A DNA stretch of 35,793 bases from Pseudomonadota bacterium (GTDB lineage Bacteria > Pseudomonadota > Gammaproteobacteria > JAADHS01). Location: assembly GCA_021821045.1 (NCBI GenBank), contig JAKACW010000045.1, positions 1 through 35,793 of the forward strand. Direction: 5' to 3'. Each line of letters begins with the position of its first letter. Position 1 is the stretch's first letter. Shown here piece after piece: positions 8,565 to 29,560 of the stretch. Position numbers and translations under genes: made by a program. A model generated the notes under the pieces. That model ran no database searches. It was given only the letters and a program-made list of their open reading frames with translations, and was not told the DNA's origin.

Positions 8565-8689
8565 TTCGTTCTCCTTCGCACACACCCGTGCGCAAGCTCG
8601 TGGATGACACGGCATGGGAAGGGAGAGAGCAAACGGAGAACAGGCGAAAGGCCGGCTGCACCGTGACATCGCCCTCCGCAATGCCGAAC

Positions 8690-8895
8690 AGATGCACCAG
8701 GCCGGTCTCCGGGCTCGCGAGTGGTGAATCACCTGGCGAATCGCCTTCCCGCGTCGAAACGCAGTGGCAATAAAGATTCGCTTTGACTCGCTTACCGTTG
8801 CGGGGGCAGCGCCGGAATTGTGCTGGTTGTCGCCAGAACGCACCGGCTTCCCGTTTCATCCCGCGGGCGAATGCCGTTGGGACACCTGAAGCTGC
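8690..8895 (-). promoter_or_regulatory. Cobalamin (AdoCbl-class) riboswitch upstream of btuB
   Basis: On the minus strand the conserved pieces appear in the right order: GAAACGGGAAGCCGGTG (8857-8841), GCTGCCCCCGCAACGGTAAG (8810-8791), GCCACTG (8768-8762), and the B12-box stretch AGCCCGGAGACCGGC (8715-8701), comparable to AAGCCCGAAGACCTGCC in the E. coli btuB leader. CAGG at 8888-8885 can pair with CCTG near 8700 to close the structure. The element begins where the predicted transcript starts and ends about 130 bases before the btuB GTG. No T-rich terminator follows, so control of translation or a different termination mode is more likely. A small GC hairpin (8593-8578) lies just before the btuB ribosome-binding site. 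Confidence 0.93.
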
Positions 8896-8900
8896 GGCAA

Positions 8901-8930
8901 ACTCTAATGGGCTTGGGGCGGGGTTGTCAA
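8901..8930 (-). promoter_or_regulatory. Predicted sigma-70 promoter of the btuB-cob operon
   Basis: On the minus strand a perfect TTGACA (8930-8925) is followed after 18 bases by TAGAGT (8906-8901), a four-of-six match to TATAAT. Transcription would begin near 8894, exactly at the 5' edge of the riboswitch. That agreement supports the call more than the boxes alone. Confidence 0.65.
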
Positions 8931-9406: not shown

Positions 9407-10190
9407 CCTTATGACGATCCTTTAGCGACCGATCCTCAAAAGGACAATGGCTGCGGTCCCACGATGGAAGGAAACCCGTGCAACGCGGCCACACGTAAAA
9501 AGTTCAAGTCGAGCCAGATTACATCGACGCTGGCGTGATGCCGTTGCAGTACTGCCGGTATTACAACAGCCTAGCGAACGAATCGACAGCATTCGGTCCG
9601 AAATGGCGCGGATCTTATGACCGACGACTCGCCGTCGCCTCCGGCGAAATCATTGCGTGGCGCGAGGACGGGTCGCGGCTGGTATTCACCTGGTCCGGGT
9701 CCGATTGGGTCACGGATGCGGACGTTCACCGCCGACTCGAAACCATCGCGAGTGGCTTCCAGTTCGTCGACGAAGGCGACATCCTCGAGGTTTACGATAG
9801 CAACGGTAAGCTCACCTCGATTTCTACGCGCGACGGCAAAACGCAGACACTTAGCTATATCGGGGCAGGTCAGCTTACCAGCGTAACCGATCCCGCCGGA
9901 CGGGCGCTGAGTTTCGCGTACGACGGCAATGGTCGTGTAGCGAGTCTTGTCGACCCTGCGGGTGAGGTAACGCTGTATGAATACAACGCGAGCGGCGTAC
10001 TGCAATCGGTAATTTTTCCGGACAATACTCCGGGATCCACTACGGACAATCTGCGCCGGGAGTATCACGACGAGGATGTTAATTTCCCGCAGTAGAGCGC
10101 GATGAAATCACGTTCGATTCTAATCGCACGACATCGACGGTCGAAAATGCGCTGGGTTAAATCAAGCGATACGACTATGATGCTTGGACG
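9407..10190 (+). pseudogene. Rhs/YD-repeat protein remnant, frameshifted and truncated
   Basis: The longest intact stretch (9535-10095) encodes a typical piece of an Rhs protein: LQYCRYYNSL, FGPKWRGSYDR, then YD-type repeats such as DSNGKLTSI, DPAGRALSFAYDGNGRVASL and DPAGEVTLYEYNASGVL. Homology continues outside that frame. Upstream, another frame reads GNPCNAATRKKF, the usual GNP-N-ATGNK motif just before the region, and a frameshift near 9500 joins it to KVQVEPDYIDAG. Downstream, a TAG at 10093-10095 ends the frame and a different frame reads FDSNRTTSTVENALG, then a stop and IKRYDYDAW. The rest of the Rhs core, the RHS-associated core motif and any toxin tip are absent. This is a dead fragment of a polymorphic toxin or Rhs element. 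Confidence 0.8.
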
Positions 10191-10193
10191 GCG

Positions 10194-10466
10194 TCAAGAA
10201 GCCACTTCAATTGGTGCGGGGTCCGTGACGCCGGCCTCGCCGACCACTACGCTGCCGTCGACGGCTCGCAGCGCGAAGGATTCGTCCAGCAGCGTTGCCA
10301 GCGCGCTCGCCAACGCGGCGCGGTCGACACTGCACGGCACTTCCGCCAGTGTGCGCAGCCGTTCAAACGCTGCGGCGGGCAACCAATCGTTGTCCGGGTC
10401 CGCCGTCACGAGGAGAATCCCTGCCGGGCCCCACCGTCCAATGCCGCCGAAACCAACGCGCTGCGA
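10194..10466 (-). pseudogene. Out-of-frame 3' continuation of the MglA-like GTPase locus
   Basis: This frame overlaps the end of the GTPase frame and ends at 10194. Its last 80 or so residues (for example WGPAGILLVTADPDNDWLP, FERLRTLAEVPCSVDRAAL, LDESFALRAVDGSVVVGEAG) look like natural protein, whereas the GTPase frame over the same bases becomes arginine- and glycine-rich and unconvincing. I infer that a frameshift near 10440-10470 split one coding region, or that a second small gene was fused and lost its start. I recognise no domain in it. It ends about ten bases beyond the end of the Rhs remnant. Confidence 0.4.
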
Positions 10467-11142
10467 ATGAGTCCATGGTTTGCTCCAAGGACAGGTGCAA
10501 ACGATTGCGTTCGTAGACCCGTTTGAGCAGAGCGAGAAACGTCTCCAGCACGCCCTCGGCGCGCAGGTCGCGCTTATTGAACTGCACCACCTGCGGAAGA
10601 TTCTCGAAATCCGATCCCACTCGCATCGCGCTATCGGCCAGATTGTCGAGGGGTTCGCTGTTGTTCGTGTTTTGGTTGCGCTGGGAGTCGGCGACGAATA
10701 CCGCACCCTCGGCGCGGAACAGCACGGCTTTGCGGGTGCTGTCGTGGGCCACTTGTCCAGGCACAGTGAACAACTTGAATTTGACAAACAATTCCGATGG
10801 TGCGCGAAATCCGACGGGTATCAGATTGAAAAACGGGGTGCGGTCGTTGCGCGTTTCCAATGTCATGAGGTGACCGCGCAGTTCCGCACGGATTTGCTCG
10901 TGCAACTGAGTCAGATTGGTCGTTTTGCCGCTCAGCGCCGACCCGTAGCAAACCAATTTAAACGTGATTGGTTTGAAGCTGGTCGGCGCGCTGGCGCCGA
11001 GCTGGTTCGTCGTTGGTCTGCCCTGCCAGGCCGCTCCACTGTTCCTACGATTTCTTGCCCTAATTCGGGAAGGTTTTCGGAAAGTTCCGGGAATACCTGA
11101 AGCGCCGCGCGGGATGGAATGTCGTCGCTCGATATGTGGCAA
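10363..11142 (-). CDS. MglA-like Ras-family small GTPase, probably frameshifted at both ends
   Basis: The core (about residues 58-225) is a bacterial MglA-type GTPase: P-loop GSALSGKTTNL at 67-77, TVPGQVAHDSTRKAVL at 127-141 (the DTPGQ-like G3 region in MglA style), VFVADSQ at 148-154 and the guanine-specificity motif NKRD at 189-192. MglA proteins are polarity switches for motility and type IV pili in Myxococcus, usually working with a Roadblock partner; related GTPases exist in many proteobacteria. The first 55 residues in this frame look unnatural, while an overlapping frame starting at 11210 reads plausibly (SRAALQVFPELSENLPELG). So an indel near 11000 is likely, and another near 10450. 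It may be inactive. It is transcribed divergently from the receiver gene. Confidence 0.62.
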   Translation of the reverse strand: MPHIERRHSIPRGASGIPGTFRKPSRIRARNRRNSGAAWQGRPTTNQLGASAPTSFKPITFKLVCYGSALSGKTTNLTQLHEQIRAELRGHLMTLETRNDRTPFFNLIPVGFRAPSELFVKFKLFTVPGQVAHDSTRKAVLFRAEGAVFVADSQRNQNTNNSEPLDNLADSAMRVGSDFENLPQVVQFNKRDLRAEGVLETFLALLKRVYERNRLHLSLEQTMDSFAARWFRRHWTVGPGRDSPRDGGPGQRLVARRSV

Positions 11143-11247
11143 TAATCTGAAACAACCGTTTCAACAATGTGCCTCTCGCGGCAGTGTCTAGAGTACAATC
11201 GTGCGTGCATGTGGGCAAATTAGAGGCGGCGGGTGGTGAGTTTGAAA

Positions 11248-12105
11248 ATGAGTGCGGGAGAACAGGATCCTCTGGGAGATCGAGTTTTGCTCGTGGTGGA
11301 CGACGAAGAAAATATTCTGGCCAGTTTGCGCCGCTTGTTTCGCCGTGATGGCTTGGAGGTCTTAGTCGCCCGATCCGCGCGCGAAGGTCTGCAAGTTCTG
11401 GCCAACCGCTCGGTCGGCGTCATTGTGTCGGACCAGCGCATGCCGGAAATGAGCGGGGTGGAGTTCCTGCGAGTGGTCAAGCAGCGCTTCCCGGATACTG
11501 TTCGCATTGTACTTAGCGGTTATACCGACCTGCAGTCGGTGACCGACGCGATCAACGAGGGCGCGATCTACAAGTTCCTATCCAAGCCGTGGGACGACGA
11601 CCAACTGCGCGCCAACGTGAACGAGGCGTTCGAGCGCTATTTCATGAAGCAAGACAATCTGCGGCTGAACCGCCAGTTGACCAGTGCCGTTGACGAGTTG
11701 TCGCGAATCAATGATGAGTTGGAACTGCGCGTTGAGGAGAAAACTCGGGAACTCACGCAAAATCTTCAGTCGTTACGACTAGCCCAGGCCGTACTCGAAC
11801 ACTTGCCGGCGGCGGTGTTCGGCCTGTGCGAAAACAACCGCATCGCGGTGGCCAATCGCGCCGCCTACGCGCGCTTTGCGCATCCGGGTGTGGCGCTGCT
11901 CGGCGAGCCGTTCGGCGAAGTCGTTCCGCCGCTGCTGGCCGACACCGTGCGCCGCCTGCGTGAGCGGTTTGCTGCGGACGGTTCCTCCGAAGAGGAGGAT
12001 GTCCCGGCGCTCGGGCGCGTGATCTGCGCCCCGCTTGTGGTGAACCAGGCGGGTGTCGAGGGTTGGGTTGTGGTCGTCGGCGAACACGTCCCTGGGGCGC
12101 GTTAG
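11248..12105 (+). CDS. Response regulator: receiver domain, coiled coil, PAS-like C-terminus
   Basis: A 285-residue protein. Residues 11-130 are a receiver domain of the RpfG-like subtype: VVDDEENIL at 17-24, phosphoacceptor D62 in VSDQRMPEMSG, switch residue region LSGYTDLQ, and K113 in FLSKPWDDDQL. A charged coiled coil (about 135-185) follows, then a PAS-like fold beginning LEHLPAAVFGLCENNRIAVANRAA. No enzymatic, DNA-binding or HD-GYP output domain is present, so it probably acts by protein contact. The ATG at 11248 has GGTGAG a few bases upstream; a GTG at 11233 is also in frame. It opens the signalling cassette, and its receiver closely resembles the one at 16044. Confidence 0.85.
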   Translation: MSAGEQDPLGDRVLLVVDDEENILASLRRLFRRDGLEVLVARSAREGLQVLANRSVGVIVSDQRMPEMSGVEFLRVVKQRFPDTVRIVLSGYTDLQSVTDAINEGAIYKFLSKPWDDDQLRANVNEAFERYFMKQDNLRLNRQLTSAVDELSRINDELELRVEEKTRELTQNLQSLRLAQAVLEHLPAAVFGLCENNRIAVANRAAYARFAHPGVALLGEPFGEVVPPLLADTVRRLRERFAADGSSEEEDVPALGRVICAPLVVNQAGVEGWVVVVGEHVPGAR

Positions 12106-12282
12106 GATCGTCCTCCGCCTCGGACCAGCCCGGGGGCTTGACTGCGGCGACCCATATCTCCGCAGAGTCGCTGGGGCGTTTGGGGATCGGACCAGCGGAA
12201 ATCGGTATGCGGTGGCCCGAATTCAGCGCGGCCACCGTGGAATCCCGCGCATTGCGGGCCGACGGCTGAACTCCCGCCGCGA

Positions 12283-14178
12283 TTGGCCGCTACTCTTGCT
12301 GCGCTTACCGCGGGAGCAATCGCCGTTTTGGTCGCCACACGCTCGACGGGCGTTGCTGCGTTCAGTCGCCCAAAGTTCAATCGCCGTTTCGCCATCGTCA
12401 TTACGGTGGCGTCGGTGGCCATTTTTCTCGCTGGGTGGGCCGGTACCCGCTACGTGTCGGCACTGCTGTCGGACATTCACGAAGAACGTCTAGTGAAGAT
12501 GACCGAGCAGTTGTGGCAGCGGAGCCTGGAGGGGCACTTCACCCGCGCTGCCGCCCTTTTACCCGCGTTGACCCGCGATACGGTGCTGACATCGGGATTG
12601 CTTACGGGAGAGTACGACAATTTGTCGCGATCGGTCGAAACCACCTACAACCGTTTGAGCACGTTGGGCGTGATTGACCAATTGCTCGTTGCCGACGCCG
12701 ACAACGTCATCCGCTATCGCGCGCCGGTAGGAGCTGCGGCGGATGAGTCATTGGCCCAGGCCGCGGCCCAACGGCGCGTCGTGCAGGGATTGACGGTCGC
12801 CGATGAGGGAGGAGTCTTTTTGTCATTCGCGATGCCGCTCTACAGCGATCAGCGTTTTGCGGGCAGCGTGTTGTTGCGCAAACGCGTCGAACCCACGCTC
12901 GCGGCGCTTGTGGGGAACAGTCCACCAATGGCTGTCTTGCTGATGGATCACGGCGGAGGCGTTATCGCCCGTGCCGGCGATGCAGCCGTTGTGCGAGGGG
13001 CGCAAGAAATAGATCCGCGCGTCCACGGCGCAGTGTGGCAGAAATCGCCAGGGCGCTATCTTCAAGTCACGGCCATCCCGATTGTTTCGTTGACCGACCC
13101 CGATGCCCTGCACTTGCTCTATGCGGTGGACGACAGCGCGACCTACGTGAGGTACATCGGCGCGCAAGTGGCGGTGTCGCTCAGCTACCTCGCGGTGTTG
13201 GTCGCCGCCTTGGCGGTGGTATACCGCTTTATCGTTAAAGTCGGTTACGACCTGTCGCGCGGTCAGGCGCACTACATTGGTGCTCTCGAACACGCCAACG
13301 ACGAAATTCGCAAGCTTCTTGCCGATCTTGGCTACGCCAAAACGCGCCTGATCGAATCGGAGAAGTTGGCTTCTCTCGGTCAGTTGGCGGCCGGTGTAGC
13401 CCATGAGATCAACAATCCCGTTGGTTATATCAGTTCCAATCTCAATACCCTCGCCAGCTACCAAGACCAACTGTGTCGCGCCCTGGATGAGTACGCCGCC
13501 TTGGTGGCGCAATCGCGCGATGAACGCACTGCGGCGCGGGCCCGCGAAATCTCGAAGACGCTCGACGTGGATTTCATTCGGTCCGATGTGGCGCACCTGA
13601 TTCGGGAGACGGGCGAGGGTATCCAGCGGGTGCGTCAGATCGTGGTCGATCTGCAGGATTTTTCCCGTACCGACGCCAGCGACTGGCAGTGGGCCGACAT
13701 ACATCGCGGCCTGGATAGCACGCTCAACATCGTGCGCAATGAGCTGAAATACAAGGCGGACATTGTCAAGGAGTACGGCGACTTGCCGCCGGTGGAGTGC
13801 CTGGCATCCAAGCTCAATCAAGTGTTCATGAATTTATTGGTCAATGCGGCGCAAGCCATCGAGAGCTACGGCAAGATCTGGATCCGTACCGGCACCGAAG
13901 GCGAGGAATGGGTTTGGGTCGAGATCGAGGATACGGGCCGGGGGATTGTCCCCGAACACTTGTCGCGCCTGTTCGAACCGTTTTTTACCACCAAGCCCGT
14001 CGGCAAGGGCACGGGCCTCGGGCTGGCGGTTTCCTACGGCGTTGTGCAGCAACATGGTGGGCGCATCGACGTGCGCAGCACGCCGGGAGCGGGTGCCGCG
14101 TTTCGGGTGGGGATTCCACGCTCCCGGGGTGGTGCGGCGCCTTCCGGCGCACAACAGTCGGCAACAATGGCGGATTAG
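12283..14178 (+). CDS. Membrane-bound sensor histidine kinase with periplasmic Cache-like sensor
   Basis: About 630 residues. One membrane segment at about 36-55, a periplasmic region of some 235 residues (58-290) looking like a double Cache domain (for example RFAGSVLLRK, MAVLLMDHGGGVIARAG), and a second segment at about 294-318. A coiled linker leads to the kinase: H-box [15 protein letters not shown] with phosphoacceptor H374, N-box [11 protein letters not shown] at 516-526, G1 DTGRG at 550-554, and [23 protein letters not shown] at about 564-586. The start is uncertain: the frame opens with TTG at 12283 and there is no nearby ATG or GTG. The 177 bases between the preceding gene and this start hold no gene I can support. 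The stop lies six bases before the next gene. Confidence 0.88.
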   Translation: MAATLAALTAGAIAVLVATRSTGVAAFSRPKFNRRFAIVITVASVAIFLAGWAGTRYVSALLSDIHEERLVKMTEQLWQRSLEGHFTRAAALLPALTRDTVLTSGLLTGEYDNLSRSVETTYNRLSTLGVIDQLLVADADNVIRYRAPVGAAADESLAQAAAQRRVVQGLTVADEGGVFLSFAMPLYSDQRFAGSVLLRKRVEPTLAALVGNSPPMAVLLMDHGGGVIARAGDAAVVRGAQEIDPRVHGAVWQKSPGRYLQVTAIPIVSLTDPDALHLLYAVDDSATYVRYIGAQVAVSLSYLAVLVAALAVVYRFIVKVGYDLSRGQAHYIGALEHANDEIRKLLADLGYAKTRLIESEKLASLGQLAAGVAHEINNPVGYISSNLNTLASYQDQLCRALDEYAALVAQSRDERTAARAREISKTLDVDFIRSDVAHLIRETGEGIQRVRQIVVDLQDFSRTDASDWQWADIHRGLDSTLNIVRNELKYKADIVKEYGDLPPVECLASKLNQVFMNLLVNAAQAIESYGKIWIRTGTEGEEWVWVEIEDTGRGIVPEHLSRLFEPFFTTKPVGKGTGLGLAVSYGVVQQHGGRIDVRSTPGAGAAFRVGIPRSRGGAAPSGAQQSATMAD

Positions 14179-14184
14179 CGGGTC

Positions 14185-16047
14185 ATGGAAAAGCATCGAA
14201 TTTTACTGGTCGAAGACGACGCCGATACGGCGGCGACGATCGAACTCTTGCTGGGCGAGTGCGGCTGTTCGGTGTGCGCCGTAGTTGACAACGGCGGCGA
14301 TGCCGTCGCGTGGACCGCCAAGCACCGCCCCGATCTAGTGGTGATGGATATCGTCCTGCCCGGCGCAATGGATGGCGTCGCTGCCGCGCAAGTGATCCGC
14401 CAGCAGAGCGACATTCCGGTTGTATTCGTCACCGGCCACTGTGACGACTCTCTCGTCGAGCGTCTCAAACTGGTCGCGCCAATGGGCTTTTTGACCAAGC
14501 CGGTGGCCCGCAATGAGCTCAACGTGGTCGTGGAAAGCGCCATCTTTCGCGACCGCGCCAACAAGGAGTTGGCGCGGCGAGCCCTGTCGCTGGTGGAGGC
14601 CAACCTGCGTTCCGCCACGCTGACCACCGTGCTGGAGCAACTGCGGGCCGCCGACAGCGCCCTGCAGGCGAGCGGCGATTTCAAGGCATTTTACCAGACC
14701 ATCGTGAGTCATCTCGTAGAGGCCACGAAGGCTAAATACGGTGCTTTTGGCGTGTTCGACGCTTATGGGCGCTTGACGGCGTTCATTGCCTCCGGCCCTA
14801 TGGGCTCGGCGGAGTTGGATGCCGCGGTGTTGCCCGAGGGAAAGGGCGTGTTGTTGGCGATTTACCAGGGCCGGCGAATCATGCGAATTAATGACATTTC
14901 CCGTCATCGGGTCCACCAGGGATTCCCCGCAGGTCATCCGACCATGACGTCCATGGTGGGGATTCCGCTGATCGACCGGGAGCGTTGTCTGGGCGTCATT
15001 TACCTTGCGGACCGCAATGGCGGTGCGCCGTTCACCGAGTGGGACGAGACTTTGCTAATGATCTATGCCGCCGAGGCGGTACACGTGCTGCAGCGCGCGG
15101 CGTTGCTGGACGAGACTCGCCGCCGCGGGCGCGAACTCGTGCGGCGCAACGAGGAACTGGAGGAGGCGAACCGGCGTTTGGGCGAGGCGCAGGCCCAGGT
15201 GCTGCAGTCGGAGAAGCTGGCGTCCATTGGCCAACTGGCCGCCGGCGTCGCCCATGAGATCAACAACCCGGTCGGTTATGTCGGTTCGAATATTGAATCC
15301 TTGCGTGGTTACGTCAACGACCTGCTGCGGATCATCGAGGGGTACGAGACCTGGGCGGAGAACCCCTCCGACGAGTCGCGGCGCGCCGAATTGGACGCTG
15401 CTCTGCGCACCGCCGACCTGAAGTTCATCCGGCAGGACGTCGAGCAACTACTGGCGGAGACGCTGGAGGGTGTCGCTCGGGTGCGCAAGATCGTGCAGGA
15501 TCTCAAGGAGTTCTCCCACGTCGATGAGGGTGAGTGGGAAGCGGTGGACCTGCATAAAGGCATCGAATCGACCATTAACGTGGTTCGGAACGAGATCAAG
15601 TACAAGGCCGAGTTGGTAAAAGAGTTTAGCGATATTCCCCTGGTGGAGTGCCTCCCTTCGCAGATCAATCAGGTGTTCATGAATCTGTTGGTCAACGCGG
15701 CCCATGCCATCGACAACAAAGGAACGATCGCGCTGCGAACGGCATGGGATCGGGCGGAGGACCAAGTCATCGTGGAAGTTCAAGACTCCGGCTGCGGGAT
15801 TCCGGAGGAGAATCTGAAGAAGATTTTTGACCCCTTTTTTACCACCAAACCGGTGGGAAAGGGGACAGGCCTGGGACTGTCGGTATCCTACGGGATCGTA
15901 ACCAAGCACGGCGGGACCATCGAGGTGGAATCGCAGGTCAATAAAGGAACCTGCTTCCGGGTTCGATTACCTGTCAAACGCGATGTCGCTGCACGGGCCG
16001 AGTTGGTCGGGGCGGAGCACACGGCGCGGACGGTGGAAACGACATGA
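14185..16047 (+). CDS. Hybrid protein: receiver - GAF - histidine kinase (cytoplasmic)
   Basis: 620 residues without membrane segments. Receiver domain at 5-122 with phosphoacceptor D55 ([13 protein letters not shown]) and K105 (FLTKPV). GAF domain at about 165-305 ([38 protein letters not shown]). Coiled coil, then the kinase with H-box [19 protein letters not shown] (H357), N-box [12 protein letters not shown], and G boxes [19 protein letters not shown] and [13 protein letters not shown]. The kinase half is strikingly similar to that of the preceding gene, including the insert after the H-box with LKFIRQDV and the IVQDLKEFS segment. The receiver precedes the kinase, so the protein probably receives phosphate from another kinase and then controls its own. 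Its TGA overlaps the next ATG (ATGA). Confidence 0.92.
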
Positions 16048-17393
16048 GCAGCGTGAACCAGCAGACCTCTCTCGCGGCGCCCCAGGGCGAGGCGACGGTA
16101 TTGTTCGTCGACGATGAAGAAAACATTTTGGCGGCCTTGAAGCGTTTGTTCCGCTCCGGCGGCTACCGACTTTTGACGGCCACCAGCGCGAGCGCGGGGC
16201 TGGAGATTTTGGTGAAGGAGCCGGTCGACGTGGTGATCTCCGACATGCGTATGCCCAATATGGACGGCGCGCAGTTCCTAAAGCTCGTCGCCGAGAAATG
16301 GCCAGATACGATGCGCATGCTCTTGACGGGCTACGCCGACTTGACTTCGGCCGTCAAAGCCATCAACGAGGGGCAGATCTATCGCTACATCAGTAAGCCG
16401 TGGGAAGACAACGACCTTAAACTGACCATGCAGCGCGCTCTGGAGCAGCGCTTTCTCGTCAAGGAAAAGCAGCGCCTGGAGGAACTGACCCGCCGTCAGA
16501 ACCACGAGCTCTCGGAACTTAATGCTGGTTTGGAAAAGAAGGTCAAGGCTCGCACGGCCGAACTGGAACAGATGATGGGCATGCTGGACACCGCCCATCA
16601 GGAACTCAAGCGTCACTACGCCACGACCATCAGCGTCTTTTCGAACTTGGTGGAGCTGCGCGAAGGGCACAGCGCCGGCCATTCGCGCCGGGTTGCGGAT
16701 ATCGCCCGTCGTTTGGCACGCAGGCTGGAATTGGACAAGGCGGCCACCAAGGACGTGATTTTCGCCGCGCTGCTCCATGACATAGGCCAGTTGTCGCTCA
16801 GTGACGAGGTGCTACGCACGCCGTTCAACAACCTCATACAAAAGGACCGCGAAAAGCTCATGCGCCATCCCAAACTAGGGGAGAGCGTGTTGATGGCCTT
16901 GGAACCGCTGCACGGCGCTGCCGCGCTGATCGCCGCTCATCACGAGTGTTACGACGGCAGCGGTTTTCCGAACAAGCTCGCGGGCGAGGCGATTCCGTTG
17001 GGCGCGCGCGTCATCACGGTGGCCGATGATTACGATGCGCTGCAGATGGGTTTGATCGCGCCCAAGCGGTACACGGCCGGGGAGGCGCGAGATTATATCG
17101 TCCAGCAGCGCGACAAGCGCTACGATCCCCGGGTGGTTGACGCCTTCGCGTTGATTGTCGAAGAGATCGCTCGCGAGGAGCGCTTGGCACCCGCCGTAAC
17201 GGTGAAGTTAGGCGATCTGAAGCCTGGAATGGTCCTGGCGCGCGACCTGGTGACCGCCGACGGGATGCTGCTGCTTGCCAAAGGTCATGTCTTCGATGGA
17301 CGGTTGATCCACAAGGTTGCCGTGGTGGCCGAGACGCTGGAGCAAGGGCTGCAATTCTTCATCACCCCCGAGTCCGTTGACGGCGCTTCTTGA
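16044..17393 (+). CDS. Response regulator: receiver - coiled coil - HD-GYP (c-di-GMP phosphodiesterase family)
   Basis: 449 residues of RpfG type. Receiver at 17-135 with DDEEN at 23-27, phosphoacceptor D67 (VISDMRMPNMDG) and K118 (YISKPWEDND). Coiled coil at about 135-190. HD-GYP domain at about 192-385: HSAGHSRRVADIA at 209-221, the HD pair in LLHDIGQ (H245, D246), HPKLGE at 275-280, HHECYDGSGFP at 299-309 and VADDYDALQ. A C-terminal tail follows (VTVKLGDLKPGMVLARDL). HD-GYP enzymes hydrolyse c-di-GMP. Two deviations are visible: the usual HDIGK is HDIGQ and GYP is GFP; the metal-binding histidines and aspartates are kept, so activity is plausible but unproven. It is the likely output of the kinases upstream. 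Confidence 0.93.
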   Translation: MSSVNQQTSLAAPQGEATVLFVDDEENILAALKRLFRSGGYRLLTATSASAGLEILVKEPVDVVISDMRMPNMDGAQFLKLVAEKWPDTMRMLLTGYADLTSAVKAINEGQIYRYISKPWEDNDLKLTMQRALEQRFLVKEKQRLEELTRRQNHELSELNAGLEKKVKARTAELEQMMGMLDTAHQELKRHYATTISVFSNLVELREGHSAGHSRRVADIARRLARRLELDKAATKDVIFAALLHDIGQLSLSDEVLRTPFNNLIQKDREKLMRHPKLGESVLMALEPLHGAAALIAAHHECYDGSGFPNKLAGEAIPLGARVITVADDYDALQMGLIAPKRYTAGEARDYIVQQRDKRYDPRVVDAFALIVEEIAREERLAPAVTVKLGDLKPGMVLARDLVTADGMLLLAKGHVFDGRLIHKVAVVAETLEQGLQFFITPESVDGAS

Positions 17394-17642
17394 CCGCCGG
17401 GGCCAGCGCGTGATCCCCATTATCGCGACGTCATAACCGTAGTTGGTTCTATCGTCCCGAAAGGGATTGCTCGATCACGCGAGCGGTCATCTCCAGACGC
17501 GCCGCATCTGTGTTTCCGTTATGTGGCATGTTGCCGTTGCGATCGGCAAATCAGGTTGGGCTTTATGCGTATTTTATTCCACTCAAATCACATGGTCCGT
17601 GCGTCGACATTCTAGGCGTTATCACCTTGCTTTGGAGTCGGC

Positions 17643-18065
17643 GTGGGCGCGCGGGACGAGAAACTCGATCGTAAAATCTTCGCCGGGCTGCGCGCGCTCG
17701 TGGAATCCGCTTTTCCGAAGGAGTGCAAGACCTGCGGGCGCCTGTACGCGAGCGCGGACGATTTCTTCCGGGAAACCGACTCGGTGAACGGTCGCTCTGG
17801 CCTGAAAGCATCTGAGAACGAGGACGGCTCGCCGCTGGTGGAGCTATTTCGCAACTGCGTTTGCGGTTCGACCTTGATGGATGCGTTCCACGACCGGCGC
17901 GATCGCGGCGAGCGCGGTTTGGCGCGGCGCGAAAAGTTCGGAGCCGTGCTCGACCAGTTGGTGGAGACAGGAATGGTGCGGGAGCGGGCGCGCCTGGAAC
18001 TGTTGCGCGTCTTGCGCGGAGAATCCAGTGAAATATTGTCCGAACTGCTAGGCCGCAAGGTTTGA
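17643..18065 (+). CDS. Conserved hypothetical protein with CxxC and CxC motifs
   Basis: 140 residues, soluble. The sequence holds C28-K-T-C31 in ECKTCGRLY and C72-V-C74 in RNCVCGSTLMD, a set that could bind zinc or another metal. The C-terminal 50 residues are charged and helical (FGAVLDQLVETGMVRERARLELL, LRGESSEIL). I have seen similar uncharacterised proteins in betaproteobacteria near two-component genes but know no function. The GTG at 17643-17645 has a TTGGAG ribosome-binding site six bases upstream, and composition matches the flanking genes, so it is probably real. It follows the HD-GYP gene by about 250 bases with nothing recognisable between, so it may be a separate transcript. Confidence 0.75.
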   Translation: MGARDEKLDRKIFAGLRALVESAFPKECKTCGRLYASADDFFRETDSVNGRSGLKASENEDGSPLVELFRNCVCGSTLMDAFHDRRDRGERGLARREKFGAVLDQLVETGMVRERARLELLRVLRGESSEILSELLGRKV

Positions 18066-18325
18066 TTTCTCATTTTCCATATTGCGAACCCCTGTTTCTT
18101 GATTTGACAGGAAAAAGGTTTATGCATTTGTGCATCCTGCCGCCGACAGTTTGTCCATGCTACGCGTGGTTGCTCAGTTGTCTCGGAACCGTCGTGCTTT
18201 GGCTACGGCCGGGATATTCGTAATAGGTAATTCATTGCGGACAGAAATCCACGACACGTCGCTCCACCAGGGTCTATTCGAGTATGTGCGCGGGTTTTCG
18301 TTGGGCTAGGGGCAGGCGCTTCAAT

Positions 18326-19161
18326 ATGTCTCAATGGTCTCTTACGTTGCGTGCGCGTCTGCTGTTTCTGCTGGCGCTGATCGTCGTTCCCGTTTGTACA
18401 CTGATGCCCCACAACGCGAAAGATGTGCGCCGAAGCGAGACTCTTCATATGAAGACGGTCGCGCTGCGAATGGCACGTCTCGTCTTGCTGGAACGGCGAG
18501 AGCTCATCGCAGGCGCGCGGCAGTTGCTTCCCAGTTTGGCGCGGTTACCGAGTCTACGTGCTTCCGATTCCAGGCCTGTCTGCAACAGCGAGCTAGGTAA
18601 GCTGGTCAAGCGACCCCCTACTACGCGAACTTCGGCGTGAGTGGCATCGATGGGTGGATGCGCTGCAGCGGATTGCCGATGAAAGCGCCCGTGTCCATCG
18701 CCGATTGCGACTATTTTCTCCAGGCCATTGAAACCGGTGACTTCGCGGTCGACGGATACCAGATCGGCCGTATCACCGGCAAGAGCGCGATAACTTTCGG
18801 CTATCCCTTGCGCGACGTAAGTGGCCAGACCGATGGAGTCGTCTTTGCAGCGCTCGATCTCGCCTGGTTGAGCCGAAAGTTGACCGAAATCCCGCTACCG
18901 GAAGGAACCACGATAACGATTCTGGATAGTCATGGCACGGTGTTGGCACACCACTTGGCCGGGCCGAACACCGAGTACGTTACTGTTGGAATCCCGCGTT
19001 CCGTCGCCTACGCCGACATTGATGCCCGTTTCCGAAAGGATTTGCTTGCGCTCTTCCTCAACGTGCTGGCGGTCGCCGGTTTGGCATGGATTGGAACCAG
19101 AAACTTCGTTCTGCGGTCGCTCGACGCATTGACAGTCGCCGCCAAACCGCCCGGGTGTTAA
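18326..19161 (+). pseudogene. Membrane sensor (Cache-type) remnant, frameshifted and lacking an output domain
   Basis: The first part starts MSQWSLTLRARLLFLLALIV, a positively charged end and a membrane helix, and reads to about 18615. A frameshift there moves the homology to the next frame, which begins YYANFGVSGIDGWMRC and runs through DCDYFLQAI, GYQIGRITGKSAITFGYPLRD, VVFAALDLAWLS and TTITILDSHGTVLAHHL, a typical double-Cache periplasmic domain as found before GGDEF or kinase modules. A second membrane helix (about 19037-19090) is followed by FVLRSLDAL, where a HAMP-like linker normally starts. The frame ends at TAA 19159-19161 with no HAMP, PAS, GGDEF or kinase after it. It is both frameshifted and truncated and cannot signal as it stands. 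Confidence 0.75.
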
Positions 19162-19278
19162 GCCTACCCAGACTAATAATGCCATCCTGTCGCCAAGGAA
19201 AACATCAGAACGCGTGTTGTGAGCCGTTACAGTGGCATGCATTGGTTTCCTGTCGACACAGCGAGATCTTGGCTTGAA

Positions 19279-21498
19279 ATGACAACCGACGAAGAAGAAT
19301 TTCCGACGAAGCCGGGCGTGGTCGTTTTGCTCGATGGCGCGAGGGTGGAGGGGGAAATGACCCGTTCCGGAGCGCCGAACGACGCCATCCTGGTGAAGCC
19401 GCGTTCGGGAGACTCACAGGCGATTCGTTTGAGTAGCGTGCGTTACGTTTTGTCCCGAACCTCCCGGTCGAATGGCGAGGCCGTTCAAGACCCCGATAGC
19501 GGGCAGGATGCCTCGCGTCCTCGCGAGCTGTATCGGATCAAATATCGCGACGGGCACGTAGTCAAAGGCGCGATCCAAGGTTCGGTGAAGGGCAAGTGCG
19601 GCGTCCACCTTTTTCGCGCGCAGGGTGGCGTTCTTTGGGAGATGTTCATTCCCCATGATGTGATCGACGAGTTCCGTTCGGTTCCCGTCGGCGGGCGCCG
19701 GCGTTCGGGCGAAGAGGCGAGTGCACCGATGCGCGAGGCGGCTGTCGCCAATCCATCGGCGTTGCATGCCCGTACGGTCAGCACGATGGAAGAGCTGAAG
19801 TCAGTCAGTGCGCAACGAGCAGATTTTTCATCGCGCCCTTTGGGACAGATCCTCGTCGACGCCGGACTCATCTCCAAGAAGGATCTGCAAGAGGGGTTGG
19901 CGAGTCTCGAGCGGGCGCCGGGGAAGCGCCTAGGGGACCTGTTGGTCGAGACCGGGCGCTTGACCGCGACCGAACTTCACGAAGCGCTGGCGCGGCAGTT
20001 CGATCTTCCTTTCGTTGATCTGAGAAAGTTCGAAGTGGATCCTTCGGTGCTGTCGCTCATCCCGGCGGCGTTGGCCCGCAAATACAACTTCATGCCCCTG
20101 ATGCTTCACGACGACCATCTCTATATCGCTATCGAGAACCCCCACGACGTGGACGCCGTCAACGCACTCAGATTCGTGGTCGGCCGCAATGTCGAGGTCG
20201 CGGTGTCGACCCAAGAGGACATCAGTTGGGCCATTACGACGTACTACGGCGCCCAGGAGGACGAGGAAGCCCTCGAGGAGCTCGAGAGCCGCGAGGCCGA
20301 CGACGCGGCGGATAAAAAGGACATCGTAGAAGTCGAACGGCTGGGCCGGGAAAAGCCCGTCGTGCGGATGGTCGAGTACATCATTACCGAGGCGATACGA
20401 CGAGGCGCGTCCGACATTCACATTCGACCGAGCCAAGGGGAAGTCAGTCTCGTGTATCGCATCGACGGATCGCTGGTGAAAGTTCGGAGCTTCCGTAAAG
20501 CCCTGCTGCCCGCGGTCGTTAGCCGCATCAAGATCATCGGGCGAATGGACATCTCAGAACGCCGACTTCCCCAGGATGGGCAGGCGCGTGTCGTATATAA
20601 GGGGAAGGCGGTGGACCTGCGAATTTCGGTGATACCCACCGTTGAGGGCGAAAGCATCGTCATCCGCATTCTCGATACGGATGTCGGCATCCGTTCAGTG
20701 AGTCAACTGGGTCTCACGGACATCGATACCCGCATTCTGGAAGGGCTGCTACACAAGAGCTATGGGCTATTTTTGGTGACGGGGCCGACCGGCTCGGGGA
20801 AGTCCACCACCTTGTATGCCGCACTGAACGAGCTGATCAAGCAAAACATCAATATCATAACTGTCGAGGATCCTGTCGAATACCACATTGACAGCATAGA
20901 GCAGATTCAAGTGAAGCCCGATGTTGGCTACACCTTTGCCGAGGCGCTGCGCCACATCCTTCGTCACGATCCGGACGCCATCATGATCGGCGAAATTCGC
21001 GACCAAGAGACGGCCAAGATCGCGGTGGAAAGCGCTCTGACGGGACATGTCGTGTTGAGCACGTTGCACACCAATAGCGCCGCCGCGACGATTGTTCGGC
21101 TGCTCGAAATGGGGCTGGAGTCCTATCTGATTTCTTCCACACTGCTCGGCGTCCTCGCCCAGCGGCTTATCCGACGCAATTGCGCACACTGTCTCGACGT
21201 GGAGGAGGTGGACTCCGCGATACGCCAGTCTTTACGGGTGAGCCAGGATGAAGTTTTCTACAAAGGAAAGGGCTGCGAGCAATGCAACGGAACCGGATAC
21301 AAAGGGCGCATGGTGGCCTACGAACTGCTCCTCGTCGATGAGGCGGTGCGGGAGAGTATCGAGCCCGGTGTCCCCGCCGCTGCAATTCAGAAACCCGCCC
21401 TCGCTGCCGGGATGGTGCCGTTAACGGCCAACGCGCTTGCATCGGCGCGAGCGAAACTGACATCCCTGGCGGAGGTGTACCGGGTCCAGCTTGGGTAG
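19279..21498 (+). CDS. pilB: PilB/GspE-family motor ATPase with two extra N-terminal beta domains and an MshEN domain
   Basis: 739 residues, some 170 longer than usual PilB. Two small repeats at about 8-62 and 82-137 (GVVVLLDGARVEGEM; YRIKYRDGHVVKGAI) resemble DUF6982/Sm-like beta domains. An MshEN module at about 186-325 shows both motifs of the c-di-GMP-binding type: LGQILVDAGLISKKDLQEGL and RLGDLLVETGRLTATELHEA. The ATPase has Walker A GPTGSGKST at 502-510, the aspartate box, Walker B DAIMIGEIRD at 566-575, a His box to TLHTN at 595-599, and a zinc site of two CxxC pairs (635/638, 666/669). PilB drives pilus extension; GspE drives type II secretion. The ATG at 19279 was chosen; a GTG at 19219 is in frame. 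No pilC or pilD gene adjoins, so the exact role is open. Confidence 0.88.
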   Translation: MTTDEEEFPTKPGVVVLLDGARVEGEMTRSGAPNDAILVKPRSGDSQAIRLSSVRYVLSRTSRSNGEAVQDPDSGQDASRPRELYRIKYRDGHVVKGAIQGSVKGKCGVHLFRAQGGVLWEMFIPHDVIDEFRSVPVGGRRRSGEEASAPMREAAVANPSALHARTVSTMEELKSVSAQRADFSSRPLGQILVDAGLISKKDLQEGLASLERAPGKRLGDLLVETGRLTATELHEALARQFDLPFVDLRKFEVDPSVLSLIPAALARKYNFMPLMLHDDHLYIAIENPHDVDAVNALRFVVGRNVEVAVSTQEDISWAITTYYGAQEDEEALEELESREADDAADKKDIVEVERLGREKPVVRMVEYIITEAIRRGASDIHIRPSQGEVSLVYRIDGSLVKVRSFRKALLPAVVSRIKIIGRMDISERRLPQDGQARVVYKGKAVDLRISVIPTVEGESIVIRILDTDVGIRSVSQLGLTDIDTRILEGLLHKSYGLFLVTGPTGSGKSTTLYAALNELIKQNINIITVEDPVEYHIDSIEQIQVKPDVGYTFAEALRHILRHDPDAIMIGEIRDQETAKIAVESALTGHVVLSTLHTNSAAATIVRLLEMGLESYLISSTLLGVLAQRLIRRNCAHCLDVEEVDSAIRQSLRVSQDEVFYKGKGCEQCNGTGYKGRMVAYELLLVDEAVRESIEPGVPAAAIQKPALAAGMVPLTANALASARAKLTSLAEVYRVQLG

Positions 21499-21501
21499 AG
21501 A

Positions 21502-22599
21502 CTAATCGATCGACAGCTTTTCCGGGTGACTGGCTGCGCCACCCTCGAGCATTCGCATCTGAACGCCGACATTGTTCTTCGAGTCGGCCTGCCGCAAGGC
21601 CTCGTCCTTTGAGATTTTTCCGGCCTTGTAGAGGCGCAGCAACGATTGGTCGAAGGTCTGCGTGTTCTCATCCGCGTTGCTGGCCATGACGTCGCGTACC
21701 TTCTCGATCTCGCCCTTTTGAATGAGTTCGCTGACATAAGGCGTGTTGAGAAGAATCTCGACAGCTGGCACCCGCTTGCCGTCGACACCGATGACCAAGC
21801 GCTGGGAAATGATCGCTCTCAGATTCAACGACAGATCCATCAGAATTTGATGGTGCGCGTTTTGCGGAAAGAAATTGATGATGCGCTCTAATGTTTGATA
21901 AGCGTTGGTGGCGTGCAGGGTCGAAAGGCACAGGTGGCCGGTATCGGCGTAGGTAATGGCATGTTCCATGGTGTCACGGTCGCGAATCTCGCCGATGAGA
22001 ATCACGTCGGGCGCTTCGCGCATGGCGCGCCGTAAGGCACTGTCGTACGAATCCGTGTCCGAGCCGATTTCGCGCTGATTTACCAGCGACTTCTTGTGCG
22101 GGTGCAAATATTCGATGGGATCTTCGAGCGTCAGAATATGCCCCGTTCGATGGGCGTTGCGGTAATCGATCATTGCCGCGAGCGTTGTCGACTTTCCGGA
22201 GCCGGTGGAGCCGACGACCAAGACCATTCCCCGTTCCTCCATCACCAGATCGCGTAGGCGCAGAGGAAGATTGAGTTGTTCGATGGTGGGGATCGTGGTG
22301 TTCAGATAGCGCACCACCATGGCCACTTCGCCGCGTTGGCGAAATACGTTCACCCGAAAGCGCCCAAGGTTGGCGACGGACAACCCCATGTCCAGTTCGC
22401 GCGTTCGCTCGAAGTACTTGCGCTGATCGTCGTTCATCACGGAGTAGGCGAGGGTTTGCACTTCGCCGGCTGGCAGAGGGTGGTTGCCGACCGGGGAGAC
22501 AATCCCTTCCACTTTGATGTTCGGCGGGGCACCGGTGGTGAAGTACATGTCCGACGCGCGTTTATCGACCATCAGTCGCAGAAATGCAGTGAGTTCCAT
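21502..22599 (-). CDS. pilU: PilT/PilU-family twitching motility ATPase
   Basis: 365 residues, a hexameric motor ATPase for type IV pilus retraction. N-terminal PAS-like region with MVDKRASDMYFTTGAPP (10-26), Walker A GSTGSGKST at 130-138, aspartate box LEDPIEYLH at 158-166, Walker B DVILIGEIRD at 198-207 and His box TGHLCLSTLHATNA at 220-233. The early KRASDMYFTTGAPPNIKVEG and the C-terminal extension are closer to PilU than to PilT as I know them. PilU works with PilT, but no pilT lies next to it here. It converges with the PilB-like gene; the two stops are three bases apart. A candidate promoter lies about 65 bases upstream. Confidence 0.88.
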   Translation of the reverse strand: MELTAFLRLMVDKRASDMYFTTGAPPNIKVEGIVSPVGNHPLPAGEVQTLAYSVMNDDQRKYFERTRELDMGLSVANLGRFRVNVFRQRGEVAMVVRYLNTTIPTIEQLNLPLRLRDLVMEERGMVLVVGSTGSGKSTTLAAMIDYRNAHRTGHILTLEDPIEYLHPHKKSLVNQREIGSDTDSYDSALRRAMREAPDVILIGEIRDRDTMEHAITYADTGHLCLSTLHATNAYQTLERIINFFPQNAHHQILMDLSLNLRAIISQRLVIGVDGKRVPAVEILLNTPYVSELIQKGEIEKVRDVMASNADENTQTFDQSLLRLYKAGKISKDEALRQADSKNNVGVQMRMLEGGAASHPEKLSID

Positions 22600-22915: not shown

Positions 22916-24538
22916 ATGAACAGTCAACGATGTCGTGATGTTGCGCGAAGCTGCGCACGGCTGGCGCGCATCGTCGTGTTGTTCGGTGCTGTAACACAGG
23001 GTGCGGCGGTCGCTGGCGCGGACTCTTCCCACCGGGAGTGCACTGCAGTCTTTCCCGAGTCGTTTCCCCCTCACTTTCAAGTGACAAACAATGGCGTTCC
23101 GATCGGTTTCGCGATCGAAGCCATGGAGGAGATCGCGACGCAAGGAAAGCTAACGATCAAGTATGTCAGCACGCCAACGTGGGAGGAGGCCATAAGACGG
23201 GTTGTCAGCGGCCAGGCCGATTTGATTCCCAATCTCGGGATAACGGACGAGCGCCGTGCGGCGTTGGATTTCTCGATTCCTTATGAGACCTTTGCTCTTC
23301 GGTTGTTCGTCCGGCGGGAAAACGGCCTCTATACCGGGTTGAGCGATTTTTCCGGCGTGGGCGTGGTGGGGGTGGTGAAGACCAACCTCGGGAAGTCGCT
23401 GGTTGAGGCAAATCCTGGCGTACGTTTCCGAGTCTTCGATTCAGTGACCACCGCCATCGTCGAGTTAAGAAACGGAACGCTCGATGGCATTGTTTTCCCG
23501 GAACAGGTCTTCCTTCATTTCGCATCGCAGATGGGCTATTCCGACCGATTCAAGGCCGTTGGCCCCCCGTTGGCGGTCGTGGAGCGCGCGGTCGCGGTGC
23601 GCAAAGGCGACACTCAACTACTCGCGCAATTGGACGCCGCGATTCCTTCGGTACTCTCATCCGATGCCTTCCAGCGAATCCATTCGCGCTGGTTCCCGGC
23701 CCCGCCGGGTTTTTGGACGACCCGCCGAGTCGCGATCCTGCTTGCGACTCTAGCGATCGCCGGCGGGATTCTAGGCTTTGGCGTTTATCTTGCGCGGCTG
23801 CGGGCAACGAACCGGGCGTTGAATACGGCTCACGGCTTTTGTTCGACGGTTCTGCAGGCCGTACTGGAGGGCGTCATTACCATAGATCGCCACGGGGCTA
23901 TCCGAAGCATCAACTCGGCGGCACAATCGATGTTTGGATACGCCGTGGAGGATATTTTGGGTCGCCACCTGGCGGATCTGTTCGTTCCGGAGGACACCGA
24001 CAAAATCCAGCAATACCTGATGCGCGAGCGTGAGCCGCACTATTCCGCCGACTACAGTCCCATTCCCGTATTTAGAAGCGCGACGGTGCAGCGCAAGTCC
24101 GGCGAGCTGGTTCCGGTGAGATATGGACTGGCTCCAGCCAAGATCGGAGCCGACACCCTTTTCGTTTTAACCGTCCGCGATGTGTCCGAGCAGTTTCGCT
24201 TGGAAAAGCAAATCGAGTTTCTCGTGGACCATGACGAATTGACTGGATTGCTCAACCAGCATGGACTGGCGCTCGTGCTGGGGAGTTTGCTCGGTCAGGC
24301 GCGCCGGCGGAATAGCCCGCTGTGCTGCGTGGCAATAGGCATCATGCATTTTGGTCAGATCAACGAAACGTATGGCCGGGCAGAACAAGATCTCTCAAAA
24401 ATTGAGTGTAAAAGAGGCACGTCGGCTGTCGAAACAGTAGTCGAACGTGCGATCGCAAACGTTGTTCTTTGGACTGCGAGGCCACACGCTGTTTCAAACT
24501 CCGCTGCGAGGAGCCATACCTACACCAACAACTTTTAG
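22916..24538 (+). CDS. Periplasmic binding (SBP_bac_3) - PAS - truncated GGDEF protein
   Basis: 540 residues as read. A signal peptide (to about 36) precedes a family-3 solute-binding-like domain at about 40-262 (PPHFQVTNNGVPIGFAIEAM, GITDERRAALDFSIPY). A membrane helix lies at 271-292. A PAS domain follows at about 306-425 (VLQAVLEGVITIDRHGAIRS), then the start of GGDEF (VDHDELTGLLNQHGL at 437-451). Homology stops at about residue 488 (QINETYGRAEQ); the last 50 residues are not GGDEF-like and the catalytic GGDEF loop is missing. The early GGDEF part is also unusual, with AIGIMHFGQ where a metal-binding DxDxFK is expected. The gene was cut near base 24378, so it cannot be an active diguanylate cyclase. 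Confidence 0.8.
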   Translation: MNSQRCRDVARSCARLARIVVLFGAVTQGAAVAGADSSHRECTAVFPESFPPHFQVTNNGVPIGFAIEAMEEIATQGKLTIKYVSTPTWEEAIRRVVSGQADLIPNLGITDERRAALDFSIPYETFALRLFVRRENGLYTGLSDFSGVGVVGVVKTNLGKSLVEANPGVRFRVFDSVTTAIVELRNGTLDGIVFPEQVFLHFASQMGYSDRFKAVGPPLAVVERAVAVRKGDTQLLAQLDAAIPSVLSSDAFQRIHSRWFPAPPGFWTTRRVAILLATLAIAGGILGFGVYLARLRATNRALNTAHGFCSTVLQAVLEGVITIDRHGAIRSINSAAQSMFGYAVEDILGRHLADLFVPEDTDKIQQYLMREREPHYSADYSPIPVFRSATVQRKSGELVPVRYGLAPAKIGADTLFVLTVRDVSEQFRLEKQIEFLVDHDELTGLLNQHGLALVLGSLLGQARRRNSPLCCVAIGIMHFGQINETYGRAEQDLSKIECKRGTSAVETVVERAIANVVLWTARPHAVSNSAARSHTYTNNF

Positions 24539-24548
24539 GAGTCGTTCG

Positions 24549-25115
24549 ATGAACAAAAAGTATTTTTCCCGAAGCGCTTCACGGGCTTGGTTCTTTGGAC
24601 TGTCGTGTTTGGTGGTATCAGCCACAAGTCAGGCACAACTTCCGGCCGACGTTCAAGAAAAGGTCAATGCGTACAAAACTCAACTGCAAAAGTGGGCCTC
24701 ACACCCCGTCATAGTCAATGCAGTGAAGAACGCCAACGCGACAGGCAGCGTGCTGCCTGACATGTCCAACTCACGGTGGCTCGATGTTCCCGAGTCGGAC
24801 CCACGGGTAACACAGCTGTCCAGTAACGATGCAGGCGCATTGATGTCCGAATGGGAAGCCGATCCCAATATAAGCAAGCTCTATCTGCGCGACGCTGAGG
24901 GGAACATGGTAGCGGCCGGCCGGAACAAGCCGCTACTTTGGAACAATAAAACGAAGCCACCGTTCCAGAACGCGATTAAGGGTGAGGGTGTCTGGACGGC
25001 CGACGAGATCAAACCGGACCCGGCGTCCCAAATCCCAGGGGTTCATGTCTCCGCACCCATCATGGATGGAGGTAAAGCTATTGGTGTGCTCCATACGAGC
25101 GTGGTCGCCAAGTAG
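24549..25115 (+). CDS. Secreted single-Cache-like sensor protein next to a chemoreceptor
   Basis: 188 residues from the ATG at 24549, which has an AGGAG site upstream. Residues 1-29 form a signal peptide (basic start, hydrophobic core WFFGLSCLVVSA, likely cut after SQA). The mature part looks like a Cache/PDC ligand-binding domain: long first helix with ASHPVIVNAVKNANA, then SKLYLRDAEGNMVAAG, LLWNNKTKPPFQNAI, GEGVWTADEI, and the final strand GKAIGVLHTSVVAK. No second membrane helix or output domain is present, so it should be free in the periplasm. It lies 45 bases before a methyl-accepting chemotaxis gene and may bind a ligand for it. Composition is less GC-rich than in the flanks, suggesting acquisition. 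Confidence 0.8.
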   Translation: MNKKYFSRSASRAWFFGLSCLVVSATSQAQLPADVQEKVNAYKTQLQKWASHPVIVNAVKNANATGSVLPDMSNSRWLDVPESDPRVTQLSSNDAGALMSEWEADPNISKLYLRDAEGNMVAAGRNKPLLWNNKTKPPFQNAIKGEGVWTADEIKPDPASQIPGVHVSAPIMDGGKAIGVLHTSVVAK

Positions 25116-26924: not shown

Positions 26925-27248
26925 ATGAACAAGACAAACAAGTTTTCACCTGAGGTTCGAGAGCGTGCAGTGCGGATGGTCCAGGAGCACTGGGATGCGT
27001 ACCCCTGCCTGTGGGCTGCGGTTGAATCGATCGCCCCGAAGATCGGCTGTGTGCCGCAGACGCTGCTGGAATGGGTCAAGCGCGCCGAGGTCGATAGCGG
27101 CCAACGCGCTGGGCTGAGCACGGCTGAGCGTGAGCGCATCAAGGAGCTGGAGCGCGAGGTCAAGGAATTACGGCGCACCAACGAGATCCTGCGCACGGCC
27201 AGCGCTCTTTTCGCCCAGGCGGAGTTCGACCGCAAGCTGAAGTCGTAA
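26925..27248 (+). CDS. IS3-family transposase OrfA
   Basis: 107 residues. The N-terminal helix-turn-helix [17 protein letters not shown] and [16 protein letters not shown] binds the element's ends. The C-terminal leucine zipper ([22 protein letters not shown]) mediates multimerisation with Orf[11 protein letters not shown] at the end is the usual site where a programmed frameshift gives OrfAB. The frame is complete, but its partner orfB is truncated, so no transposase can be made from this copy. Confidence 0.93.
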
Positions 27249-27396
27249 ACGCCTACATCGACCAGCACCGGGATGCGTACGGGGTCGAGCCGATTTGCAA
27301 GGTACTGCAGGTTGCCCCGTCAGCCTACCGGCGCCATGCGGCCCGGCGGCGCAATCCCGAGCTGCGCAGCGCGCGGACCCAGCGCGATGAGCGCTT
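27242..27396 (+). pseudogene. IS3-family transposase OrfB, N-terminal fragment
   Basis: Starting inside the end of orfA, the frame reads [20 protein letters not shown], then [17 protein letters not shown] and NPELRSARTQRDERL, the standard start of IS3-family OrfB. The match stops there, before the integrase core with its DDE residues, and the next bases belong to a kinase-like gene. It is a deletion product. Confidence 0.8.
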
Positions 27397-27401
27397 GGCG
27401 T

Positions 27402-29325: not shown

Positions 29326-29560
29326 TGCAGTTCGAGGTGCCCAGTGACGAGGGCAACAGGGTGGCGCGCAGATTCACCACCGCTGTTAAGAATCGCGACG
29401 CACCCGTCCAGGCCATGAAAGAGTTAGGGTATGACTTCTTCGGCTTCGATGGTGATGATTCGGCGGAGTTCCCTATACCGGCGACGTTTGTGATTTCCCA
29501 CGGTGGCCTTGAACCGGTCCGATTCGAACACGTTCTATACACCCGGCGAAACTGGCTGCA
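29318..29560 (+). pseudogene. Peroxiredoxin-like (AhpC/TSA) fragment
   Basis: The plus-strand frame reads LQFEVPSDEGNRVARRF, then GYDFFGFDGDDSAEFPIPATFVISHGG and VRFEHVLYTRR. This is the pattern of the C-terminal half of a thioredoxin-fold peroxiredoxin-like protein (SDPGNxVAR, FNGDDSxELPxPATFVID, VRFxHVDPDYTRR). The N-terminal half with its catalytic cysteine is absent, and the fragment starts where the LysR homology stops, so the two truncated genes abut. Homology fades near 29560, where another frame takes over. Confidence 0.6.

Follow-up and report, generated by a model that had tools for sequence, protein, structure and literature searches.

Does the close grouping of an MglA-like GTPase, histidine kinases, c-di-GMP-related response regulators and pilus-type motor ATPases on one gammaproteobacterial contig represent a single pilus-control circuit? 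A sequence-only reading had suggested that it may, and the question was addressed here by domain analysis and by comparison of gene neighborhoods across genomes. The DNA examined (the window) is a stretch of 35,793 nucleotides of contig JAKACW010000045.1. Searches with Pfam and NCBIfam models confirmed the domains of the genes that had been listed, and the GTPase is recognizable on the minus strand between positions 10194 and 11142 by its matches to MglA structures in the PDB (E 6e-31). The features are collected in Table 1. The plus strand from 11233 to 17393 encodes, in this order, a REC-PAS protein, a membrane histidine kinase, a REC-GAF-histidine kinase and a REC-HD-GYP protein, and the genes of the latter two overlap by 4 bp. 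Two of these products had been described as RpfG-like receivers, which has to be corrected: the REC-PAS protein carries no HD domain and only the other one is a REC-HD-GYP protein. The motif of this predicted phosphodiesterase reads HHECYDGSGFP, with GFP in place of GYP, and the HD and HH motifs are present.

Table 1. Features of the window discussed in the text
Feature	Position	Strand	Evidence
Partner-kinase stub, remainder replaced by RHS-repeat fragment	10194..10394	-	tblastn with L027/L082 histidine kinases
MglA-family (Group 1) GTPase pseudogene	10427..10977	-	69.6% identity to the L023 GTPase
REC-PAS response regulator, intact	11233..12105	+	Pfam/NCBIfam; 53-56% identity in L024, L025, L026
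Membrane histidine kinase, intact (periplasmic cache-type sensor, HisKA, HATPase_c)	ORF 12283..14178	+	Pfam/NCBIfam
REC-GAF-histidine kinase, intact	14185..16047	+	Pfam/NCBIfam
REC-HD-GYP response regulator, NosR family, intact	16044..17393	+	NF053512, 565.6 bits (cut-off 400)
140-aa protein with CxxC-like motifs, no Pfam/NCBIfam match	17643..18065	+	47-56% identity to cluster-adjacent relatives
MshEN-PilB-like ATPase	19219..21498	+	Pfam/NCBIfam
PilT/PilU-family ATPase	21502..22599	-	444 bits (cut-off 319)

The entire stretch looks like a decay zone. Broken genes lie at 9535-10095, 18284-19161, 22916-25115 and 28661-29602, comprising an RHS/DUF6531 fragment, a frameshifted dCache sensor, an SBP-PAS protein with a truncated GGDEF domain and a split LysR regulator. 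A truncated IS3-type element (26925-27400, plus strand) retains its HTH transposase orfA and an ALIL frameshift pseudoknot (102 bits), and its orfB is shortened. A cobalamin riboswitch is also found in the window (8683-8904, minus strand, 111 bits); it lies upstream of the gene for a TonB-dependent receptor and of a B12 operon with cobO, cobD/cbiB, cobU, cobT, a cobC-like gene and cobS. Five other loci (L047, L048, L051, L058 and L091) encode a relative of the 140-aa protein close to the GTPase cluster.

The GTPase was searched in 369 sampled genomes of the class, which constitute an unselected test. Besides the window genome, seven strong matches were obtained, six of them full length with 60-69% identity, and the 12-20 kb regions around the strong matches showed the core described below, in most cases with a REC-HD-GYP gene immediately upstream. 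A profile built from the cluster members was then run on 84,980 named genomes and yielded at least 576 relatives, of which the best 80 were combined with the loci of the class genomes to give 86 loci. The GTPase gene is followed by a gene for a short histidine kinase (about 410-414 aa) and one for an ATPase of about 745 aa with REC, MshEN and PilB-like (T2SSE) domains, here termed the REC-ATPase; this core is present in all 86 loci, a uniformity that is partly selected since resemblance to the cluster GTPases decided which 80 named loci were taken. The ten loci without a complete REC-ATPase all stop at a contig edge. The genes are tightly packed, with a median spacing of -4 bp between the GTPase and the short kinase and of +2 bp between the kinase and the ATPase. 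The usual upstream genes encode a histidine kinase, a REC-HD-GYP protein and a REC protein. A REC-HD-GYP gene occurs in 60 of the 86 loci (directly upstream in 51), a REC protein of about 180 aa is encoded directly upstream in 37, and a REC protein of 255-300 aa, the counterpart of the REC-PAS protein of the window, is found in 27. The carriers are Beta- and Gammaproteobacteria and a few Desulfobacterota, many of them inhabitants of water and soil, including Dechloromonas, Azonexus, Zoogloea, Pseudothauera, Sulfuricella, Methylomonas, Methylomicrobium, Janthinobacterium, Noviherbaspirillum, Andreprevotia, Hahella ganghwensis and Desulfogranum mediterraneum. In 10 of 87 loci (including L023:5368-6108), the gene for a DUF6901 protein lies close to that of the REC-ATPase, in several of them immediately after it, and this protein may be an accessory part of the module.

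Another account of the window would be chance proximity: the remnant of an old GTPase, an operon of two-component genes and a pair of pilus ATPases that came to lie close together in a stretch rich in signaling genes and pseudogenes. The many fragments of the region (RHS, dCache, truncated GGDEF, broken LysR and IS) fit this explanation. It is contradicted by the recurrence of the GTPase together with the histidine kinase and REC-HD-GYP genes in loci of many families, which refutes chance for these three components. A profile (A2) of the N-terminal domain that is private to the short kinase, run on the 369 class genomes, retrieved exactly the six genomes with an intact GTPase, each time at the same locus, and in addition one weak coiled-coil match. 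Six out of six such overlaps would arise by chance with a probability of about 3e-13 if relatedness is ignored, and the six genomes belong to six different families. Judged from these sequence comparisons, the association of the GTPase, histidine kinase and REC-HD-GYP genes lies far above chance, and as an account of the whole locus chance proximity is considered quite unlikely.

It does hold for one part of the neighborhood. Neither a PilT/PilU gene nor a PilB gene lacking a REC domain was detected in any of the 86 cluster loci, and four loci from other genomes that resemble the PilB region of the window have none of the cluster genes alongside, which excludes PilB and PilU as cluster members. 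The window PilB carries a rare N-terminal extension (residues 1-205; 19219-19833, plus strand) that is found in four other genomes among the 369, where it is not located beside such clusters. This extension resembles two SH3-like repeats and is possibly also present in a paralogue from the same genome (G000 C24, L125:8518-10902). Elsewhere in the genome, ORF order and sequence reveal a T2SS operon, a contig with a PilB fragment, PilC and PilD, and additional pilus-like loci; PilO is encoded as well. The window PilB and PilU are bystanders and probably independent paralogues. The neighborhood comparison that the sequence-only reading had called for therefore gave a divided answer: the GTPase, kinases, REC-HD-GYP protein and a PilB-type ATPase do co-localize, and a pilus-type ATPase does belong to the circuit, but it is a different one, the REC-MshEN-PilB fusion, which has been lost from the window genome.

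The GTPase had been noted to look damaged, and the damage proved to be worse than stated. Its G1 (GSALSGKT), G2 (DRT), G3 (TVPGQ) and G4 (NKRD) motifs are retained, but a 26-aa in-frame deletion near position 10556, after NKRD, has removed the stretch up to G5, a frameshift follows near 10490 and no in-frame start codon is found at the proper place, so that neither a complete G1-G5 set nor an intact reading frame remains. In an alignment with 78 relatives, the window copy is altered at 21 of 87 conserved columns (those kept at 93% or more), by 12 substitutions and 9 gaps, compared with five or fewer for any other sequence. Read in the frame after the shift, positions 10388-10209 encode roughly 52 residues that belong to the N-terminal domain of the partner kinase; a stop codon and an RHS fragment come next. 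The kinases of L027 and L082 match this stub with 46% identity over 52 aa (E 2.8e-9), and many further kinases match positions 10209-10388. Only about 55 residues of the partner kinase are left, fused to the GTPase remnant. An assembly error might account for the frameshift taken alone, but not for the combination of deletion, kinase stub and losses at conserved sites. No second copy of the GTPase was found in a search of the organism's genome, and a full-length REC-ATPase was not detected in this 98.5%-complete assembly, where the matches are ordinary PilB/GspE relatives without a REC domain. The GTPase and its partner kinase are a relic of the widespread conserved module.

The sensor genes are preserved. 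Of 87 conserved columns, just 4 are altered in the REC-HD-GYP protein, which shows 50% identity to the GTPase-adjacent REC-HD-GYP protein of L023; in the REC-PAS protein it is just 3 of 51. The order REC-PAS, kinase, kinase, HD-GYP is that of L026, where the GTPase, short kinase and REC-ATPase genes come downstream; unlike in L026, the GTPase remnant of the window lies upstream of these genes and is inverted. A second, independent case of decay was encountered in G335 (L029), in which a GTPase fragment without a P-loop runs into REC-ATPase fragments and the adjoining REC-HD-GYP gene is intact. The REC-GAF-histidine kinase is absent at E 1e-50 from the same-family relatives G001 and G002, so that close relatives offer no intermediate stage.

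A working variant might nevertheless be envisaged, in which the shortened GTPase is functional and the window MshEN-PilB replaces the lost REC-ATPase as the motor. This PilB is intact, lies 8 kb from the GTPase and possesses a good c-di-GMP motif in its MshEN domain, and the GTPase still has G1 to G4. The lost segment up to G5, the frameshift, the missing start codon, the altered conserved columns and the reduction of the partner kinase to a stub speak against such a variant, as does the location of similar PilB proteins in other genomes away from these clusters, and we regard it as highly improbable. The window probably carries a decayed copy of a module composed of one or more histidine kinases, a REC-HD-GYP protein, a REC protein, a Group 1 MglA-like GTPase, a short GAF-like histidine kinase and the REC-MshEN-PilB ATPase, of which the sensor half was kept and to which PilB and PilU do not belong. 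A real unit thus makes up only a portion of the stretch; its GTPase and partner-kinase genes are pseudogenes and its REC-ATPase gene is lost. With the GTPase and partner kinase reduced to pseudogenes, the circuit cannot operate in this organism as described, and a broken copy of a conserved operon explains why the locus looked both suggestive and damaged.

In the intact relatives, the module order, the tight overlaps, the co-occurrence of the genes and the intact catalytic motifs of the GTPase, REC and ATPase proteins can be seen directly in the sequences. In the six cluster GTPases, R53, T54 and TVPGQ (78-82) are invariant, and L025 has an I after it. They thus show both Group 1 MglA features, TVPGQ in G3 and, in G2, an Arg neighboring the conserved Thr; this signature implies an intrinsic arginine finger (PMC4316618). 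An MglB-type roadblock protein (PF03259) was found in one of seven genomes, about 0.4 Mb from the cluster, and no MglB-type GAP is coupled to the module. A roadblock/MglB domain hidden in the short kinase was considered and rejected. The AlphaFold model of the kinase N-terminal domain (mean pLDDT 93) matches only GAF-like folds; none of these matches reaches significance (best E 0.11), and the 50 best listed include no roadblock domain. The REC phospho-Asp and the Walker motifs are invariant in the REC-ATPases of the relatives, and the REC domain has retained its phospho-acceptor set. A YxSLFTG-like start is conserved in 67 of 76 REC-ATPases compared with 4 of 1,223 other ORFs, which makes this N-terminal motif a candidate docking peptide.

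The notion of a c-di-GMP-tuned motor was weakened by the MshEN domains. At the key positions of the c-di-GMP motif, the cluster REC-ATPases match at a median of 10 of 22 compared with 19 of 22 in the unrelated window PilB, whose MshEN domain also exceeds the cut-off of NF053729 (49.4 versus 38 bits). The two RLGxx..G..L..L..Q motifs of a c-di-GMP receptor are not both present in the REC-ATPases, as the RLG of the second motif is missing in the sequences inspected. Loss of c-di-GMP binding through such changes has been documented for XpsE (PMC5013675). With this motif lost, the motor of the cluster is probably controlled by phosphorylation and the GTPase rather than by c-di-GMP.

The REC-ATPases are motor ATPases of the PilB/GspE type (PF00437, 416 bits, with the Walker A motif GPTGSGKT), and the machine that they would drive is presumably a type IV pilus. 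A secretion role is possible because the scores for type IVa PilB (TIGR02538; 543 bits in L023 and 567 bits in L034) are below the cut-off of 675.65, as is that of the window PilB (536 bits), and the GspE scores follow close behind. The intact module might accordingly serve a type II secretion or pseudopilus system instead of type IV pili, and the NCBIfam model nearest to the kinases is T2SS_HK, below its cut-off. However, the nearest solved relatives of the REC-ATPase are PilB structures (5tsg, 6olj and 3jc8) ahead of GspE, and the type IV pilus marker PilO was detected in all seven genomes tested, so that a secretion system is the rather unlikely choice. One of the cluster kinases (L034:6596-8077) carries a sensor domain of the PilJ type, which is a further hint at a link to pili. 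No pilin or platform genes were recognized near the cluster REC-ATPases.

The following mechanism can be proposed for the intact relatives. Sensor kinases would phosphorylate the REC-HD-GYP protein, thereby lowering c-di-GMP, and also the REC domain of the ATPase. The GTPase would cycle between GTP and GDP by means of its own arginine finger, without an MglB-type GAP, and would recruit or license the phosphorylated REC-ATPase, which in turn would power a type IV pilus or a related machine whose genes lie elsewhere. The window organism may have lost its output half by inversion to the other side and deletion, leaving the REC-PAS, two histidine kinase and REC-HD-GYP genes of the sensor/HD-GYP half as the only ones under selection. 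It is a tentative proposal, which we rate slightly short of an even chance, that the module is an undescribed self-contained unit of a GTPase without MglB GAP, a dedicated GAF-like kinase and a REC-bearing motor, forming one relay in which the motor, for pili or for secretion, is gated by phosphorylation together with the GTP state and the MshEN domain has given up c-di-GMP binding.

Control of pilus-type motors by small GTPases and by two-component systems is already known, the former mainly from Myxococcus. The occurrence of Group 1 MglA in Beta- and Gammaproteobacteria and the wide variation of its gene neighborhoods are reported by Wuichet & Sogaard-Andersen 2014 (PMC4316618), in whose sections consulted here no such module is described. 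REC-MshEN combinations are already listed (PMC5013675). The words MglA and receiver are absent from a 2024 review of PilB regulation (PMC11656802), and no description of a GTPase-kinase-REC-ATPase operon was found in the open-access literature, so this operon is apparently new. Its compact form in the culturable Dechloromonas denitrificans, Azonexus hydrophilus and Zoogloea would make the control of pilus motors by small GTPases directly testable with three gene deletions.

The module resembles MglA of Myxococcus xanthus with SgmX/FrzS control of type IV pili (PMC7519303, PMC4316618) in its Group 1 signature and in tying a Ras-like GTPase to a PilB-type extension motor. It differs in that no MglB is encoded adjacent to it and usually none in the genome, in the receiver domain of the ATPase and in the placement of kinase and ATPase genes in the GTPase operon. 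With the actinobacterial conservons (CvnA-D, Group 2 MglA), it shares a small GTPase encoded together with a histidine kinase, but no roadblock protein is found nearby, the motifs are those of Group 1 and a motor ATPase and REC proteins are present; the conservon set of kinase, roadblock, CvnC and Group 2 GTPase is thus absent. Like the PilB/MshE-type extension ATPases (PMC5013675), the cluster ATPase combines MshEN and T2SSE domains with intact Walker, Asp/His and zinc motifs, and it is set apart by its N-terminal REC domain, its YxSLFTG start and its degenerate c-di-GMP motif. The control of PilB by PdeK-PdeR/FimX in Xanthomonas (PMC11656802) likewise links a two-component c-di-GMP phosphodiesterase to a pilus motor, whereas the module uses HD-GYP and not EAL, has no FimX/PilZ and includes a small GTPase. 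The window and cluster REC-HD-GYP proteins belong to the NosR family (NF053512, 555-566 bits; L034, 555.3 bits), from which the module is distinguished by its GTPase-motor context.
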